A DNA stretch of 64,000 nt from Flavobacterium sp. (GTDB lineage Bacteria > Bacteroidota > Bacteroidia > Flavobacteriales > Flavobacteriaceae), in NCBI RefSeq assembly GCF_017744675.1, contig NZ_JAGIAV010000002.1:372001-436000 (forward strand), written 5' to 3'. Of the stretch, positions 14,242 through 50,970 are shown one piece after another. The notes under the pieces are model-generated. The model did no database searches. It was not told the DNA's origin and saw only the letters and a program-made list of their open reading frames with translations. The position numbers and the translations under genes were made by a program. The first letter of the stretch is position 1. Each line of letters begins with the position of its first letter.

Positions 14242-14636
14242 GGGGTCGACTGGTTTTGACAGCGAGTCGAATTGAACAGTAAGCACGTCGAGCATTGAGA
14301 CCTTGCTCGTAAATATAAGATCTCAAACTTTTACACGGCGAAAATAATTACGCTTTAGCTGCATAATCCGAATCATAGTACGATTGCGCCACGTCTCTAC
14401 AAGGTAGAGAAGCTGGATTCTCCTGGAAAGCCTTGGTTTGTGGCGTTCCGTTCAGGGGAACCGTAAAAATAAACCTAGATTTCCATGAGCTTCGGGTGGA
14501 TTTCGAAAATTAAGAAGATAAGTGTTGGGTGGTTGTTTCTGGCCTAGCTCAACATCGAAAATCCAATCAGGAAATAAGCGTGTAGAAAGCTCTTTAGTTG
14601 CTCGTTTGGACCCGGGTTCGATTCCCGGCGACTCCA
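14242..14636 (+). tRNA. ssrA: tmRNA (transfer-messenger RNA)
   Basis: The 5' end GGGGTCGACTGG and the 3' end GGGTTCGATTCCCGGCGACTCC are the two halves of the alanyl tRNA-like domain. GGGGTCG pairs with CGACTCC in a 7-bp acceptor stem with one G-U, and the T-arm with its TTCGATT loop is clear. The tag frame runs at 14337-14366 and reads GENNYALAA then TAA, the Bacteroidota-type tag; the resume Ala comes from the charged tmRNA. The 3' CCA is not encoded, since the discriminator A is followed by CAGA. Pseudoknot regions with many short complementary runs lie between. It rescues stalled ribosomes with SmpB. It is an RNA gene; the tRNA class is the closest available type. Confidence 0.97.
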
Positions 14637-14640
14637 CAGA

Positions 14641-44760: not shown

Positions 44761-46239
44761 TCAAACTAACTTAAACCATTCATTTACTTCTTTTTCGATA
44801 GTATCTTCAATTTTCGGATTTTCAAATTCATTTGAAACGGGATTATATTCATAATCTTTTTTCCATTCTTTATAATTCAAAGCCACTTTTTCAATGGCAT
44901 CGCAGATATAAAAAAGCTCTTCATTACTCATGATCGGATGCAATGATAAACGAACCCATCCTGGCTTATTAGTCTGATTACGCTTTAGTAATTCAGTTGT
45001 AATTTCTGCCGATTTCTCTTCGCTGATGTTGAACAGATAGTGCGCATAAGTGCTTGCGCAAGACCAGCCTCCGCGAACTTGAATGCCAAAACGGTCATTC
45101 AAAAGTCTAACGATCAAATTATAATGAATATCTTCAATTACAAAAGAAACGCAGCCTATTCGCTCTGTGGTTAAATCTCCCAAAATAGACAATCCTTTTA
45201 TTTTTTGAAGTCTCGAAAAACAAAGATCAAGGAGTTCGTTTTCTCTTTTTTTGATATTCTCCACTCCCATTTGTTCTTTTAATTCTAAAGCCAGTGCGGT
45301 TCTAATAACTTGCAAAAAACCAGGAGTTCCTCCATCTTCTCTCACTTCTATCACATCGCTGTAACAATATTTTCCTAGCGGATTGGTCCATTTTACATTT
45401 CCTCCGCCTGGATTATCAGGAAAATCAGATCGGTATAATTTTTCATTGAAAACCAAAATGCCACAAGTTCCAGGGCCACCCAAAAATTTATGAGGCGAAA
45501 AGAAAATCGCATCCAATTGTTCTTCTGGGTCTTTTGGATGCATATCGATTTTGACATAAGGCGCCGAAGCGGCAAAATCAACAAAACAAAGTCCGCCGTT
45601 TTGGTGCATTATTTTGGCTAATTCATGATAAGGCGTAATAATTCCCGTAACATTCGAACAGGCTGTAAACGAACCTATTTTTAAACTTCTATCAGCATAT
45701 TTTTTAATTTCATTTGAAAGAACTTTTGGATCGACTAAATTGTTTTCGTCGGGAGAAAGAATCACAACATCTGCATTAATTTCATACCATGGAACTTGAT
45801 TGGAATGATGCTCCATGTGGGTGATAAAAACGACTGGTTTATCGGTTTCTGATTCGTAATTTTTTCTTACTCCAATAATACGCTGCAATTTGGATAAAGC
45901 TGCCGTCATTCCGCTTCCCGTTGTCACCAAAACATCCGATTCGCTGGCATTAACCGATTTTTTAATAATTTCTCTCGAATGCTGATAAGCATAAGTAGAC
46001 GTTTTTCCTGTCTGACTTGAAAGAGAATGCGTATTGGCAATCATTGGACCAATTTTGTTGAGCATAATTTCTTCGATTGGGGCGTATAATCTTCCGCTGG
46101 CAACCCAGTCTGCATATACTAGATTTTGTTCTCCGTAAACCGATTCGAAAGTATGATCAATTCCTACTGTATTTTCTCTAAATTTAGAAAAGTAACACTC
46201 AGGCTCTGTTGGTTTTGTTGTTGGCTCAATAGCATTCAT
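44761..46239 (-). CDS. Class V aminotransferase/cysteine desulfurase-like PLP enzyme
   Basis: A 492-residue fold-type I PLP enzyme of the class V (SufS/Csd-like) group. The phosphate-binding TTGSGMTAAL is at about 106-115. The cofactor aspartate is in FVDFAASAPY (Asp221). The Schiff-base lysine is Lys251 in SPHKFLGGPG, and the C-terminal RGGWSCASTYAHYL carries a Cys at the position of the desulfurase active-site loop. It is longer than SufS (about 410), with an extra C-terminal tail. No suf genes are adjacent, so it may act on another amino acid. Confidence 0.82.
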   Translation of the reverse strand: MNAIEPTTKPTEPECYFSKFRENTVGIDHTFESVYGEQNLVYADWVASGRLYAPIEEIMLNKIGPMIANTHSLSSQTGKTSTYAYQHSREIIKKSVNASESDVLVTTGSGMTAALSKLQRIIGVRKNYESETDKPVVFITHMEHHSNQVPWYEINADVVILSPDENNLVDPKVLSNEIKKYADRSLKIGSFTACSNVTGIITPYHELAKIMHQNGGLCFVDFAASAPYVKIDMHPKDPEEQLDAIFFSPHKFLGGPGTCGILVFNEKLYRSDFPDNPGGGNVKWTNPLGKYCYSDVIEVREDGGTPGFLQVIRTALALELKEQMGVENIKKRENELLDLCFSRLQKIKGLSILGDLTTERIGCVSFVIEDIHYNLIVRLLNDRFGIQVRGGWSCASTYAHYLFNISEEKSAEITTELLKRNQTNKPGWVRLSLHPIMSNEELFYICDAIEKVALNYKEWKKDYEYNPVSNEFENPKIEDTIEKEVNEWFKLV

Positions 46240-46298
46240 ATCCTTATCATTTTTTAATTAACTAAATTGTATTGTTGTATTCTTCTTCTAGGGCTGTC

Positions 46299-47288
46299 TT
46301 AAATTTTATTCTCCAAAAGATTCTTTAATGTCGATTGCAATTCCTCGCCATGAAGGTTTTTGGCAACGATTACTCCTTTAGGATCAATTAGATAATTGCC
46401 AGGAATTGCTCTCACGCCGTATAATTTGGCAACCGCGCTATTCCAGAAAAGCAAATCAGAAACATGTGTCCAGGTCAAATTATCGTCTTTAATTCCTTTA
46501 ACCCAGTTTTCTTTCTTTTTGTCTAAAGAGATTGCCACAATGTTGAATCCTTTATCATGAAATTCTTTGTAAGCAGCTACAATATTCGGATTCTCTTTTC
46601 GGCATGGCCCGCACCAAGAAGCCCAAAAATCAACCAAAGTATACCCTTTTAAATTGTCATAAAGTCGAACTGGTTTTCCATCAGGATCTTTGGCAGTAAA
46701 ATCAGGGGCTTTTTTACCGACCGCTAATCCGTCTAAAACGGTAACCAGTTCTTTTAATTCTTTCACGTAAGTGATGTTTTGAAGGCTTTTATCTAATAGG
46801 GCAATATTTTGTGTAATCTGTTCAGGAGTTAATCTATACGACCAGTTTCGGTACAGCACATAAGCAGAAACAATAGATTTTGGATTTTCTGTTATGAATT
46901 TGCTGATTTCTACATCTTTGGTCTTTTTATAGGTTTCAAACAAATTCTGAGAAGCCGAACCTTCGACCACAGAAGCAGTATAATATTTCTTTGGACTTAG
47001 TTTTACCGTAATGGGATCTTTTTCAAGGAAAATATATAATGGCGAACTTTCAGTATTCACGCTTAATCCGTATAATTCTGGCGTTTTTACTTTCGTTTTA
47101 AAACTAAAATTTCCATCTTTTACTTTTACCGAATCAATTGTGGTAAACATTTTATTATGAAACTTCTGCAAGTAAACGTATTGCGCCACGGTATCGACAA
47201 CAGTTCCTTTTAATTGCAAATTATTTTCCTGAGCTTGAGTTTGAAAAGCTCCAAGGAACAAAGCAAAACCTAATAGTATTTTTTTCAT
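46299..47288 (-). CDS. TlpA-family thioredoxin with DUF4369-like N-terminal domain
   Basis: A 329-residue exported protein. The signal peptide MKKILLGFALFLGAFQTQAQ defines Met 47288 as start; the frame runs nine codons further up without signal character. The DUF4369-like beta domain occupies about 25-115, followed by helices. The AhpC/TSA-thioredoxin domain begins near KKAPDFTAKD and has the redox motif WCGPC (Cys226, Cys229). It is expected to handle disulfides in the periplasm, as in cytochrome maturation or oxidative repair. The only promoter seen upstream is the SAM-riboswitch promoter at 47653, so the gene may be under S-adenosylmethionine control. Confidence 0.88.
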   Translation of the reverse strand: MKKILLGFALFLGAFQTQAQENNLQLKGTVVDTVAQYVYLQKFHNKMFTTIDSVKVKDGNFSFKTKVKTPELYGLSVNTESSPLYIFLEKDPITVKLSPKKYYTASVVEGSASQNLFETYKKTKDVEISKFITENPKSIVSAYVLYRNWSYRLTPEQITQNIALLDKSLQNITYVKELKELVTVLDGLAVGKKAPDFTAKDPDGKPVRLYDNLKGYTLVDFWASWCGPCRKENPNIVAAYKEFHDKGFNIVAISLDKKKENWVKGIKDDNLTWTHVSDLLFWNSAVAKLYGVRAIPGNYLIDPKGVIVAKNLHGEELQSTLKNLLENKI

Positions 47289-47397
47289 TTTATTTTTAGT
47301 TTTAGAATTAGACAAAAGATTTTCAGGCCAATGTCAAAAGCCATTAGCGTAATTGTTATTTTATAAAAGGAATCTGGGATAACTAGTGTTTTCGCAT

Positions 47398-47478
47398 TCA
47401 GAAAAAGGCAAAGCTGTTTTCTTCAAAAATGGAATTCAAAAGTTCATAACCGGCGTACAAAATGGATTCTGCTTTCAT
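47398..47478 (-). CDS. 26-codon open frame following the SAM riboswitch
   Basis: On the minus strand, ATG at 47478 opens MKAESILYAGYELLNSIFEE then NSFAFF and TGA at 47398. It is the first open frame after the riboswitch, 52 bases downstream, and lies before the TlpA gene. It has no clear Shine-Dalgarno sequence and no recognised family. It could be a leader peptide, a small protein or the 5' remnant of a lost gene. Confidence 0.35.
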   Translation of the reverse strand: MKAESILYAGYELLNSIFEENSFAFF

Positions 47479-47529
47479 AATAAAAATTTTAAATTGGATG
47501 ATCTTAAACAGATTTACGGAGAAATCTTT

Positions 47530-47627
47530 CTTATCTGCCCGCCTATAGCGGAAGGATTTAGCACCTTATTCGGCAACAGGTTGCTAAGACTTCAATGGGC
47601 CTATTCCCTCAGTCTTTCTGGATAAGT
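47530..47627 (-). ncRNA. SAM-I (S-box) riboswitch
   Basis: On the minus strand, P1 is CTTATC (47626-47621) with GATAAG (47535-47530). Between them are the invariant S-box blocks in order: AGAAAGACTGAGGGA, GGCCC, TGAAG, TTAGCAACC, GGTGCTAAATCC and GGGCAGATAAG. It senses S-adenosylmethionine. No T-rich terminator stem is obvious after P1; AGATTT...AAATCT (47527-47510) is the only nearby hairpin, so the control mechanism is unclear. Downstream lie the 26-codon frame and the TlpA gene rather than a methionine gene. Confidence 0.95.
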
Positions 47628-47652
47628 ATCATTATATAAATTTTCTTCGATA

Positions 47653-47660
47653 CAAATATA
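47653..47660 (-). promoter_or_regulatory. Promoter of the SAM riboswitch transcript
   Basis: On the minus strand, TTG (47684-47682), a 21-bp spacer, then TATATTTG (47660-47653). Transcription would start about 20 bases before P1. Confidence 0.65.
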
Positions 47661-47848
47661 TATTAATTCTACCGAATTAGTCAAGTTTAAAATGTGTTTT
47701 TTTAAAATATTTTATTCCGTTGTATTTAAATCGCTATAAAACAATACAAATCAATGCATTAAAACAGAAAAGTATTTTAGCTTCTTTTTCATTTTATAAA
47801 AGAAATTCACACTTTTTAGAATTTAAAGAAGAAGTATCATTTTTGTTC

Positions 47849-48295
47849 TTAAAGAAAAACGTGCAGGTATTTATTTTTTTCCAGATTTGGAAGAGTCACT
47901 TTTAGTCCGTTTTCTAGATTTGAGGCAAATAATTGCAGTACTTGTTTTAGGTCGTTAAAATTATTGGGTTTCACAAAATAACATAATGCACCAAGATTGG
48001 CGGCTTTGTCCATATCATTTTTGTGTGAAGAAGTAGAGATCATAATTACAGGAATCTCTTTGTAGCGCGCATCCAATTTTAGCTCTTTCAGACATTCCCA
48101 CCCATTCATTATGGGCATATTTAAATCTAAAAAAATAACCTCTGGAATTTTATCTTGCTTTTTCAGTGTTTTCAGCGCTTCACTTCCATTTTCTGCACAA
48201 TGGCAAATAATATTTTGGTCTATATCAGCCAATGCTTCACAAAACATTTCTGCATCGTCTCTATCATCGTCAGCTAATAAAATTATCTTTTTCAT
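47849..48295 (-). CDS. Single-domain response regulator (receiver only)
   Basis: A 148-residue CheY-like receiver with no output domain. The acidic pocket is Asp10/Asp11, the phospho-acceptor is Asp57 (VIFLDLNMPIMNG), the switch residue is Thr88 (MISTSS) and the conserved lysine is Lys109 (FVKP). It resembles the RcpA-like receivers paired with PAS or phytochrome kinases. The kinase gene ends 5 bp upstream, so this receiver is its likely phosphorylation target. The last 25 residues are less conserved and run into an AT-rich region. Confidence 0.92.
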   Translation of the reverse strand: MKKIILLADDDRDDAEMFCEALADIDQNIICHCAENGSEALKTLKKQDKIPEVIFLDLNMPIMNGWECLKELKLDARYKEIPVIMISTSSHKNDMDKAANLGALCYFVKPNNFNDLKQVLQLFASNLENGLKVTLPNLEKNKYLHVFL

Positions 48296-48300
48296 TCTAA

Positions 48301-50970
48301 TTAAATGTCTTCTATATTTTGTTCAAATGGCAATGTTATAATAAAAACAGCGCCTTTATTTGAAATTCCGGTTGCTCTAATAGTTCCTCCGTGGCGTTCG
48401 GCTATTTTTTTACAGAGTGACAAGCCTAAACCTGTTCCTTCATAACGATCTTTAGAATTTAAACGGGTAAACGTTTCGAAAATGCGTCCTGTTTGGTCAA
48501 GATCAAAACCAATTCCGTTATCTTCTACCGTAATTCTGGCAATTCTGTTTCCATTTTCTATTTCTTCTGTTGCTGTAATGCTAATTTGTGGCGGAGTATC
48601 TTCTTTAGCAAATTTAATAGAATTATTAATCAGGTTATAAAACAGCTGATACAGCAATACAGAAGCTCCTTCTATAATTGGGAGTTCTTCAAAGTGAATT
48701 GTGCCTTTTGCTTCTTGGAGCGCAATTTCAAGGTCGTTTTGTATATTTTTAATAACCTCATTTAAATCGACGATTGTTGTTTTTTGCGAATCGGCATTCA
48801 TTTTAGAATAAGCCAAAACGCCATCAATCATATTAAACATTCGATCTGCCGCAACATGAATTCGCTCAATATATTTTGATGAAGATTCGTCAAGCTGATT
48901 CGCCATATGATCTTCTAGTCGGCTTAAAAATGTTTTTATTTTTCGAACAGGTTCTTTTAGATCGTGCGAAGCAACATGTGCAAATTGCTGCAAGTCGTCA
49001 TTAGATCTCTGCAATTCTTTGGTACGTTCTGCTACTAAAATTTCGAGTTTTTCGGTTATCGATTTTTGTTCATGAATATCGGTGCACGTGCCAAACCAAT
49101 TGATAATTACACCTTCTTTATCTCTAATAGGAACTGCTTTGCTTAAAAACCAGCGGTATTCTCCAGTGTTGGCATTTCTTAAACGAAATTCAAGCTGATA
49201 GGAAAGTCCTGCATGTACACTTTCGTACCAAGTTTTTGACACTAGATAAACATCATCGGCATGCAATTTTGAAATCCAGCTTAAATCTCCAAATTCGCGT
49301 TCTTCAAGACCTGTATATTCATACCAACGACTGTTGTAATAATCAACAAAACCGTCTGAATTGGCTGTCCAAATAATTTGAGGAACCAAATCTGCTAGCT
49401 GTCTAAATCTTTCTTCACTTTCTGCTATAACGTTTTGAAGTTCTTTCTGCGAAGTAATATCACTCGATGCTCCAAACCATTCAATTATCTTTTCTTGATC
49501 GTCTAATATCGGCACCACTCTGGAGAAAACCCATTTGAGGGTATCATCCTTAAAAATCCGATGCTCCATTTCAAAAATAGATTTTTCTACTATAGATTTA
49601 GAAATAAGATGAACTGCCATCTGCAAATCGCTGGCATGAATAAATTTATCCAACCAATTGATGCCTCGTTCTCCTGAATTAGACAAGCGTCCGTCTCCTT
49701 CTAGATTTTGCATAATCATCCAGTCGGCATCGAGTCGGTAAACCAAATCAGATGACGCGTTGACTAAAGCTCGAAAACGGCTTTCGCTTTCTTCCATTTT
49801 CTGGCGTGCCAGAACCTGCTGTGTAACCTCAACTGCTACTTGTATCATTCCGGTTATCTGTCCGTCTTCAATCAACGGGCGATAAGCCAAATTGTAATAA
49901 TAGTTTTTTAATTTTCCTGTACGATTATGCGGAACCAAAACCTCGCTTTGGTCAAAAGGAATTCCTTCGTTATACACCTTTAGAACCTGCTCCCAAACAT
50001 ATTGTCCTTCAAGTTCTGGCAATACATCAATCATTCTCATGCCAATAACTTCTTCTCCGCGACCTATCATTTGCAGCATGTGTTTGTTGATCTGTTCAAT
50101 GACAAGATCATCACCTTTAAGGACTAATGTTGGCGCTGGGGTTTGATGAATCATTTTACGGAAACGATTCTCGCTTTGCTGTAATCTTTCTTCTGCCTGC
50201 TTGCTTTCGGTTATATCTCTTGTAGTTCCGGCGACAAGCTCCACTTCTCCTCTTTCATTAAAAACTGGAACTAAAATATAATCGTAGATTCGTCGTCCAA
50301 GTTCAGCATGCGGAAAAGAAACTGTTCCCCTAATCGTTTTTTTTTCGGAAACAACCGTATCTATTTCACGTTCGTGCATTTCGGCGTGCCATTCTTCATA
50401 ACCATTTTCTCTTAATCCTCGTCCGATAGCCTCTTCTCCCGATTTGCCCCACATGGTCAATAAAGCTTTATTGGCATAAGTAAATCTATAATCGAGATCA
50501 AATACATAAACCAGGTCGGGAGTTCCGTTTATTATAGAATTGTATAATCTTTTTTGTTTTTCTGCAGCTATCAATGCATTGTTTAGTGCGGTTTCGGCCT
50601 GCTTCTTTTCGGTGATATCTTCCATTGTTATCACCAATACTTCATCTTGTTTTACAGCTGTAAATCTAAAACAGTATTTTCTCTTTTCATTTTCATACCA
50701 CTCTTCAAAGTTGACTGCAATTCCAGTTTCTGCAGCTTCAATAAACTGTTCTAGAATATTTGTTTCTTTAATTTTAGAAAAAACCTTGCTAAGCGGTTTG
50801 CCTTTGTAATCTCTGTTATTGATCCAGTTTATAATGTAGTCATTAAATAACAATACTGAAAAATCTTCTACCTTATTTTTAGTATTGTATAAAGATTTTA
50901 AAACTGCAATACCATTTGGCGCAGCGTTAAAAACGGTTTGAAAAAGGCCCAAATTATTTATTAGCTCCAT
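48301..50970 (-). CDS. Cytoplasmic multi-PAS sensor histidine kinase
   Basis: An 889-residue kinase with no signal peptide or membrane segment. About five PAS/PAC units lie between residues 1 and 640 (for example EAIGRGLRENGYEEWHAEMH and the repeated WFGxxxDI PAC ends). A short coiled coil, a HisKA domain with His669 (VASHDLKEPVRK) and a HATPase domain follow; the latter has the N box NLINNSIKFA, G1 DNGIGF and G2 GTGLGL. The HisKA type is the phytochrome-like SHDLxEP group. It phosphorylates the receiver gene that follows by 5 bp. A -7 element is at 51045-51052. The signal is unknown. Confidence 0.92.
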   Translation of the reverse strand: MELINNLGLFQTVFNAAPNGIAVLKSLYNTKNKVEDFSVLLFNDYIINWINNRDYKGKPLSKVFSKIKETNILEQFIEAAETGIAVNFEEWYENEKRKYCFRFTAVKQDEVLVITMEDITEKKQAETALNNALIAAEKQKRLYNSIINGTPDLVYVFDLDYRFTYANKALLTMWGKSGEEAIGRGLRENGYEEWHAEMHEREIDTVVSEKKTIRGTVSFPHAELGRRIYDYILVPVFNERGEVELVAGTTRDITESKQAEERLQQSENRFRKMIHQTPAPTLVLKGDDLVIEQINKHMLQMIGRGEEVIGMRMIDVLPELEGQYVWEQVLKVYNEGIPFDQSEVLVPHNRTGKLKNYYYNLAYRPLIEDGQITGMIQVAVEVTQQVLARQKMEESESRFRALVNASSDLVYRLDADWMIMQNLEGDGRLSNSGERGINWLDKFIHASDLQMAVHLISKSIVEKSIFEMEHRIFKDDTLKWVFSRVVPILDDQEKIIEWFGASSDITSQKELQNVIAESEERFRQLADLVPQIIWTANSDGFVDYYNSRWYEYTGLEEREFGDLSWISKLHADDVYLVSKTWYESVHAGLSYQLEFRLRNANTGEYRWFLSKAVPIRDKEGVIINWFGTCTDIHEQKSITEKLEILVAERTKELQRSNDDLQQFAHVASHDLKEPVRKIKTFLSRLEDHMANQLDESSSKYIERIHVAADRMFNMIDGVLAYSKMNADSQKTTIVDLNEVIKNIQNDLEIALQEAKGTIHFEELPIIEGASVLLYQLFYNLINNSIKFAKEDTPPQISITATEEIENGNRIARITVEDNGIGFDLDQTGRIFETFTRLNSKDRYEGTGLGLSLCKKIAERHGGTIRATGISNKGAVFIITLPFEQNIEDI

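Follow-up and report, generated by a model that had tools for sequence, protein, structure and literature searches.

A candidate SAM-I riboswitch with a predicted competing P1 partner and a conserved leader reading frame ahead of a TlpA/PLP-enzyme cassette in Flavobacterium

Intrinsic terminators are a common, though not universal, platform of SAM-I riboswitches, and to our knowledge the readout of terminator-less riboswitches in Bacteroidota is largely open. Several published systems lie close to the one described here. SAM riboswitches are known from genes through which sulphur enters methionine and cysteine (PMC9971707). In Mycobacterium tuberculosis a B12 riboswitch and a translated uORF precede ppe2, with a tight stop/start overlap reported there (PMC11260477), and in Sinorhizobium meliloti metA a SAM-II element is combined with a terminator between two in-frame start codons (PMC9373788). 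Long 5' UTRs with sORFs have been noted in Bacteroides thetaiotaomicron (PMC7366714), and a riboswitch-regulon survey that covered Bacteroidaceae does not, in the excerpt available, describe a [SusC-SusD]-TlpA-PLP cassette (PMC3766115). Among the publications listed by a search of open-licence PMC full text, whose silence is not proof of absence, none dealt with a SAM-I riboswitch with a leader ORF or with a TlpA-PLP cassette.

Here we analyze a stretch of 64,000 nucleotides of Flavobacterium sp. DNA (hereafter the window). The locus of interest resembles SAM-I/S-box elements (RF00162) in having a full-length aptamer, well above threshold, 5' of a sulphur-looking operon, and differs from them in that no intrinsic terminator was found, the P1 5' strand has a distal partner and a conserved leader ORF lies before the first gene. 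With ppe2 (PMC11260477) it shares the order of riboswitch, short ORF and target gene, including a conserved short ORF under coding selection; unlike ppe2, it has another ligand and aptamer, 109 nt in place of a stop/start overlap (the leader stop ends at 47398 and tlpA starts at 47288), and a leader whose translation was shown there but which we infer here. As in S. meliloti metA (PMC9373788), a SAM riboswitch would act on translation at a distance, although the aptamer class is different and the excerpted description of metA has no separate leader ORF. Riboswitches paired with a uORF are already known (B12, M. tuberculosis), and what is new here is that a SAM-I element is combined with a predicted anti-P1 strand and with a leader ORF under selection. 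Our main reading, to which we give a probability of roughly 0.65, is that this riboswitch controls a two-gene version of a larger sulphur-scavenging cassette.

Aptamer, promoter and alternative fold

Infernal (cmscan, RF00162) placed a full-length SAM-I (S-box) aptamer at window positions 47528-47628 on the minus strand (model positions 1-108), scoring 80.6 bits against a gathering score of 44.4 (E = 2.2e-17, or 1.6e-19 with 451 bases scanned). This confirmed the SAM-I element that the first-pass annotation had noticed on the minus strand; the range given there, 47398-47660, runs from the promoter through the small ORF, while the aptamer proper occupies 47528-47628. Given a covariance model match over its whole length, we regard the element as a genuine candidate SAM-I riboswitch. 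The features of the locus are as follows:

47653-47684, minus strand: promoter, with -33 TTG at 47684-47682, a 21-nt spacer and -7 box TATATTTG at 47660-47653 (sequence and conservation)
47528-47628, minus strand: SAM-I aptamer (RF00162, 80.6 bits, full length)
47626-47621 and 47535-47530, minus strand: P1 strands of the aptamer, 5' CTTATC and 3' GATAAG
47617-47632, minus strand: 5' strand of the predicted anti-P1 helix, ATGATACTTATCCAGA (folding, RNAalifold, duplex z)
47498-47512, minus strand: 3' strand of the predicted anti-P1 helix, a distal copy of the P1 3' strand, TCTGTTTAAGATCAT (motif conservation, RNAalifold)
47510-47527, minus strand: short hairpin AGATTT/AAATCT, possible when P1 is formed (93% of cells paired)
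47398-47478, minus strand: leader ORF of 26 codons, MKAESILYAGYELLNSIFEENSFAFF* (ORF call, profile, codon tests)
47327-47348, minus strand: hairpin GCTAATG/CATTGGC, after the leader and before the first gene (conserved stem prediction)
47307-47324, minus strand: conserved GGAATTCTTWTGTCCAAT-like block, also in Pedobacter sp. MC2016-15
46299-47288, minus strand: first structural gene, DUF4369 plus AhpC/TSA thioredoxin-fold protein (TlpA/ResA-like), 329 aa (Pfam, NCBIfam)
44761-46239, minus strand: second gene, encoding a SufS/cysteine-desulfurase-like class-V aminotransferase of 492 aa (Pfam, NCBIfam)

The window's genome has three RF00162 matches, the other two standing before a homocysteine S-methyltransferase-domain gene read as metH (L003) and an alpha/beta-hydrolase-fold gene read as metX (L002); we call the element at 47528-47628, with its orthologous loci, the third type. 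That another known RNA lies between the aptamer and tlpA was rejected, as cmscan at E <= 1 gave only two other matches, both far under the cut-off. Elsewhere in the window lies a tmRNA (14242-14639, plus strand, 145.6 bits).

Two samples of relatives underlie the comparisons below. When 301 nt from the window were searched against 199 genus genomes, 28 orthologous third-type loci emerged, a count that may miss diverged ones, while RF00162 itself was matched in 171 of the 199. A second, named set came from a scan of 84,980 species genomes, in which 86 TlpA relatives were confirmed; it comprises the best 80 of 86, at 73 loci.

The good promoter reported upstream of the aptamer holds as a conserved box: TAnnTTTG lies 24-26 nt 5' of the aptamer in 24/28 orthologous loci and only 5 nt 5' of it in two more (G102, G091), is absent at both distances in G185 and G004, and is part of a complete TTG-17/23-TAnnTTTG pattern in 11/28. 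It does not hold as a consensus match alone, which is at chance level (8 sigma-70-like sites found vs. 6.3 expected). The promoter is therefore credible because spacing and box are conserved across loci, not because of its fit to the consensus.

P1 of the third-type aptamer is invariant in all 26 aligned loci, and a downstream copy of its 3' strand (TCTGNNTAAG) is predicted to be able to capture the 5' strand, giving a mutually exclusive fold. In free folding, the P1 5' strand and its flank paired with this distal copy in 10 of 12 loci, in all 10 of which forcing P1 cost energy. Over 26 loci anti-P1 was favored over P1 by a mean of 3.3 kcal/mol (range -3.6 to 8.2), a modeled preference that ligand binding could reverse. 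The anti-P1 duplex had a mean z of -3.3 against shuffles in the 28 loci (weak in G004, G102, G091 and G052, z -0.9 to -1.75), and the RNAalifold consensus on 26 loci picks the same helix. Because the strands are invariant, covariation lends no support: 0 of the 32 consensus pairs changed on both sides, the pairs being invariant or altered on one side, and the short AGATTT/AAATCT hairpin likewise showed no covariation. In the two loci with a -7 box 5 nt from P1 (G102, G091), ATCAT, the partner of ATGAT, is lost, and L283 resembles them by eye in this loss together with a near -7 box; judging from the box position in these three, the upstream ATGAT can hardly be transcribed.

The distal copy, written as TCTGNNT[AG]AG, is present in 28/28 third-type loci, including G004, where everything 3' of the motif is lost, and in 57 of the 59 TlpA-led loci of the named set (best 80 of 86), the exceptions being L234 and L261. 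Among other SAM-I loci in the genus, 19 were compared by match position and 17 were usable, two being truncated; the motif occurs in none of the 17. A strict pattern of P1 plus distal copy, which would miss variants, was found in 2/395 class genomes, both of the genus. The metH SAM-I leaders of the genus (L064-L067, L077, L080) have distal P1 copies in different letters (duplex z -2.6 to -4.1), which makes the capture principle more credible and at the same time less special to the third type. These leaders share with our locus the order of aptamer and distal P1 3' copy (in L077, GGCGTTATCA / TGATAACGCC); they differ in being without such a leader ORF, and in L077 the distal copy has a second counterpart, GTTATCAG, adjoining the start codon of metH, which hints at a translational switch there. 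On these folding models, capture of the P1 5' strand is probably the switch of the third-type element.

The cassette and its relatives

A TlpA-type thioredoxin had been named as the first real gene about 240 bp downstream, and indeed tlpA starts at 47288, 239 nt 3' of the aptamer. The product of the second gene is closest to SufS, though far under the SufS cut-off (Pfam/NCBIfam). In its full form the cassette reads [SusC-SusD]-TlpA-[M14, S9 peptidases]-cysteine-desulfurase-like PLP enzyme, with SusC/RagA (above cut-off), SusD, M14 carboxypeptidase and S9 peptidase domains identified by Pfam and NCBIfam. The window holds a two-gene version, lacking SusC-SusD and the two peptidases of the long cassettes; a search of the window's genome for an M14 gene, run without a positive control, found none. 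Judged by its domains, the cassette probably serves to scavenge sulphur, from peptides or thiols.

The PLP enzyme lies inside the cassette in 26/28 loci, adjoining tlpA in 23, one gene further on in G175 and closing the long cassette in G015 and G114, and the 26 highest-scoring orthologs in the 199 genomes all stand at third-type SAM loci. A second paralog (72-77% identity) belongs to SusC-like/SusD/TlpA operons at three loci (G066, G103, G185; L194, L195, L196), with SusD-like, two TlpA-like (one scanned), M16 peptidase and DsbD genes in the G066 operon (Pfam, L194 only), and the G000 paralog lies outside any such operon.

The first gene is a TlpA-type protein in 24/28 third-type loci, an intact SusC in G015 and G114, a broken SusC in G185 and neither in G004, a decayed locus in which leader, hairpin and TlpA are gone beyond the distal copy. 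Flavobacterium makes up nearly the whole of the named set (best 80 of 86), including F. anhuiense, F. tistrianum, F. johnsoniae CI04 and F. hydatis; two Pedobacter and one distant Zeaxanthinibacter complete it. Among its 73 loci, still within the best 80 of 86, the aptamer stands 239-497 nt 5' of tlpA in 59. In 13 of the remaining 14, SusC and SusD-family genes directly precede tlpA; the fourteenth (L268) is a 34% relative. All 13 genomes with susC-susD-tlpA have RF00162 matches, each including a third-type element with SusC as its first ORF of >= 100 aa, and one genome (G599) has two elements, one TlpA-led and one SusC-led. Variation in the associated parts was also seen: in L272 (P. yulinensis) an aptamer stands before susC without a distal copy or a recognizable leader, a further aptamer in G596 (L288) also has neither distal copy nor leader, and in L271 (Pedobacter sp. 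MC2016-15) an aptamer with a distal copy, and without a leader, stands straight 5' of another class-V aminotransferase.

This linkage (59/73 in the best 80 of 86, and tlpA first in 24/28) supports the earlier suggestion that the thioredoxin gene has come under SAM control, and the cassette is very probably SAM-controlled, as far as gene order can tell. A further suggestion, that a met gene was lost here, and with it the reading of the aptamer as a relic controlling nothing now, agree with the lack of a following met gene and with the fact that decay does occur, as in G004. Relatives with a met gene directly after the element were looked for, and none was found in 72 loci (59 TlpA-led and 13 SusC-led, best 80 of 86); tlpA or susC comes first after the element in the examined loci (neither in the decayed G004), and the loss of a met gene is not supported. 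An invariant P1, a full-length aptamer before tlpA in dozens of species and a promoter spacing kept in 24/28 loci also make a relic exceedingly improbable, and the third-type element is real and probably functional.

Upstream of the riboswitch, the window has a response regulator and a multi-PAS histidine kinase (47849-50970, minus strand). This pair is found in 8/28 loci and other genes in the rest, indicating that the cassette has changed neighbors.

The leader reading frame

The first downstream frame is, as the first-pass annotation had it, a 26-codon ORF (47398-47478, minus strand). An intact leader ORF of 26-32 codons, starting 49-63 nt 3' of the aptamer, is present in 25/28 loci, the frame being broken in G054 (same contig as L239) and G185 and the leader absent in G004. 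In the named set (best 80 of 86) it is intact in 57/59 TlpA-led loci, counting L216 and L246, which fail a rule demanding an M-K start, as intact and L262, which is frame-shifted, and L239 as broken; it is also kept in 11/11 SusC-led Flavobacterium loci read.

A profile of 18 leaders gave 25 strong matches (E < 1e-8) in the 199 genus genomes, all at a third-type element. Among 397 family genomes there were three matches at E <= 0.001, two at a third-type element and one a chance match (G284, E 8.9e-4), so that no leader was found outside the genus at this threshold. In the 18 aligned leaders M1, K2, L7 and M28 are invariant and F-R nearly so. The end usually reads ..FRM.., shortened to ..FF* in the window's clade, where the stop falls at the position of the R of FRM in relatives and is TGA, TAA or TAG (7 TGA and 3 TAA of 10, with TAG in G109). 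What persists in truncated or diverged leaders is their position and length, not the residues.

Codon tests, run without G054, G185 and G004 (leader broken or absent), gave an omega of 0.343, 30 lnL units better than omega 1. We counted 71.9 synonymous vs. 127.1 nonsynonymous changes in 11 path-disjoint pairs (p 1e-7 to 0.007, depending on the assumed transition bias), 19 vs. 6 in the three window-clade pairs among them and, against an expected synonymous share of 0.20-0.28, 133.8 vs. 210.2 in 27 disjoint named pairs (p 2e-15 to 6e-6) and 62.5 vs. 60.5 in the 18 near pairs of the named set (p 1e-7 to 1e-13). Single pairs scatter, some with a nonsynonymous excess (e.g., 3 to 13 and 1 to 4, synonymous to nonsynonymous). 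By these tests the leader ORF is under purifying selection, and we hold with high confidence that selection acts for its translation. Of the earlier idea that the small ORF is a functional peptide, a selected ORF has thus been borne out by conservation and codon tests; the peptide itself and the act of translating it are not separated by them.

Readout and competing explanations

No terminator-like site was found in 46100-47900 (1.1 expected), in line with the earlier remark that no classic terminator stem follows. A hairpin stem between leader and first gene is predicted in 24/26 loci at <= -4.2 kcal/mol (z -1.2 to -4.9, mononucleotide shuffles); its arms differ yet remain complementary among relatives (GGCC/GGCC, GACC/GGTC, GGTC/GACC), and it is absent in G054 and no better than shuffles in G075. 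Since no terminator was found, the readout would most likely run through leader translation, and the conserved hairpin arms and the block that follows them likewise point to leader translation as a part of the output; as a model of the readout we put this forward tentatively, at somewhat less than even odds.

Accessibility of the leader start is nearly equal in the two folds (0.46 with P1, 0.48 with anti-P1). Pairing of the freed distal strand with the leader start (mean z -0.5, permutation p 0.04) is not general, with z of -1.3 to -2.0 in 6/7 window-clade loci and +0.9 in G006, and of -2.1 to -2.9 in G054, G102 and G091. The leader codons TTTTCC against the GGAATTC block gave a permutation p of 0.009, but the sequences are related and the mean z against shuffles is -0.47; G054 was left out of this test and at least one row (G091) was wrongly anchored. 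Pairing of the leader 3' end with the stretch 5' of the hairpin was unsupported, duplex z being scattered around 0.

In the mechanism that we propose, the P1 5' strand would be captured by the distal copy when SAM is absent, leaving the operon on, and SAM binding would lock P1 within the aptamer, freeing the distal strand and lowering expression. The readout may then pass through leader translation, by control of initiation or by coupling to Rho, decay or re-initiation, and the metabolite sensor and the translated leader probably act together. A more specific version, in which SAM gates whether or how fast the leader is translated and the nascent ..VFRMR.. end or the ribosome position then sets the downstream hairpin, we consider unlikely. 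If it were true, a single mRNA leader would sense both a metabolite and, through the ribosome, the status of sulphur amino acids, and the Cys/Met-rich leader of Pedobacter would be a form of this device in which codon supply is still read.

The element could alternatively be an ordinary SAM-I riboswitch of a sulphur operon whose small ORF is incidental and has no regulatory part. SAM riboswitches on sulphur-assimilating genes are known (PMC9971707), pairwise leader omega is modest (0.45-0.68), and the ORF is frame-broken in three loci; its integrity in 57/59 TlpA-led loci (best 80 of 86) and 11/11 SusC-led Flavobacterium loci, its synonymous excess and the stop-to-stop changes in the window clade argue the other way, and we judge an incidental ORF rather doubtful. 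That the leader is a micro-protein, a free peptide working in trans and not a cis-regulatory ORF, would suit its conservation at the protein level (M1, K2, L7, M28 and nearly F-R in 18 leaders), but all 25 strong matches in the 199 genomes lie directly 3' of a third-type riboswitch, the three matches in 397 family genomes (E <= 0.001) comprise two at the element and one by chance, and truncated or diverged leaders keep position and length, not residues; such a role seems improbable.

A leader peptide that counts Met or Cys codons by attenuation is less probable still. It has a possible example in Pedobacter sp. MC2016-15, whose 35-aa leader at the same place (L284) contains, beyond its start codon, 4 Cys and 4 Met and ends in MSMRMR, together with the same kind of aptamer, a distal P1 copy and a GGAATTCTTATGTCCAAT block, then susC; another lies in metNIQ, with its Met/Cys-type leader and terminator-like stem. 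Features of an amino-acid attenuator are nevertheless missing from the window, where the leader has no Cys and no further Met after its start codon and no terminator follows in 46100-47900. Under our preferred reading, of a SAM-I riboswitch controlling a sulphur-scavenging cassette, the thioredoxin, PLP-enzyme and SusCD genes gain a functional lead for poorly characterized families, and the locus offers dozens of natural variants, in which the leader is truncated or frame-broken or the promoter has moved.

Taken literally, it is correct that the riboswitch is not attached to a methionine gene, yet metN stands 3' of the cassette in 7/28 sampled loci, with metI and metQ in six of them within the fetched stretch; the G108 set comprises MetN (above cut-off), MetI and MetQ. 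In the window's genome metN is 47 kb away, with metI and metQ, beside three genes that precede the riboswitch in G015 (83-90% identity). Because metN has its own -7 box, leader and terminator-like stem, it is probably outside the SAM transcript. These three features, with a leader ORF of 22-31 codons containing S/A-[MI]-M-C-[CR], were present in 8/8 sequences (L161, at G000 C11:464.9-467.5 kb, and L100, L102, L106, L108, L109, L110 and L120). The metN leader is likely, from its sequence, a Met/Cys attenuator, its run being exactly SMMCC in 6/8.
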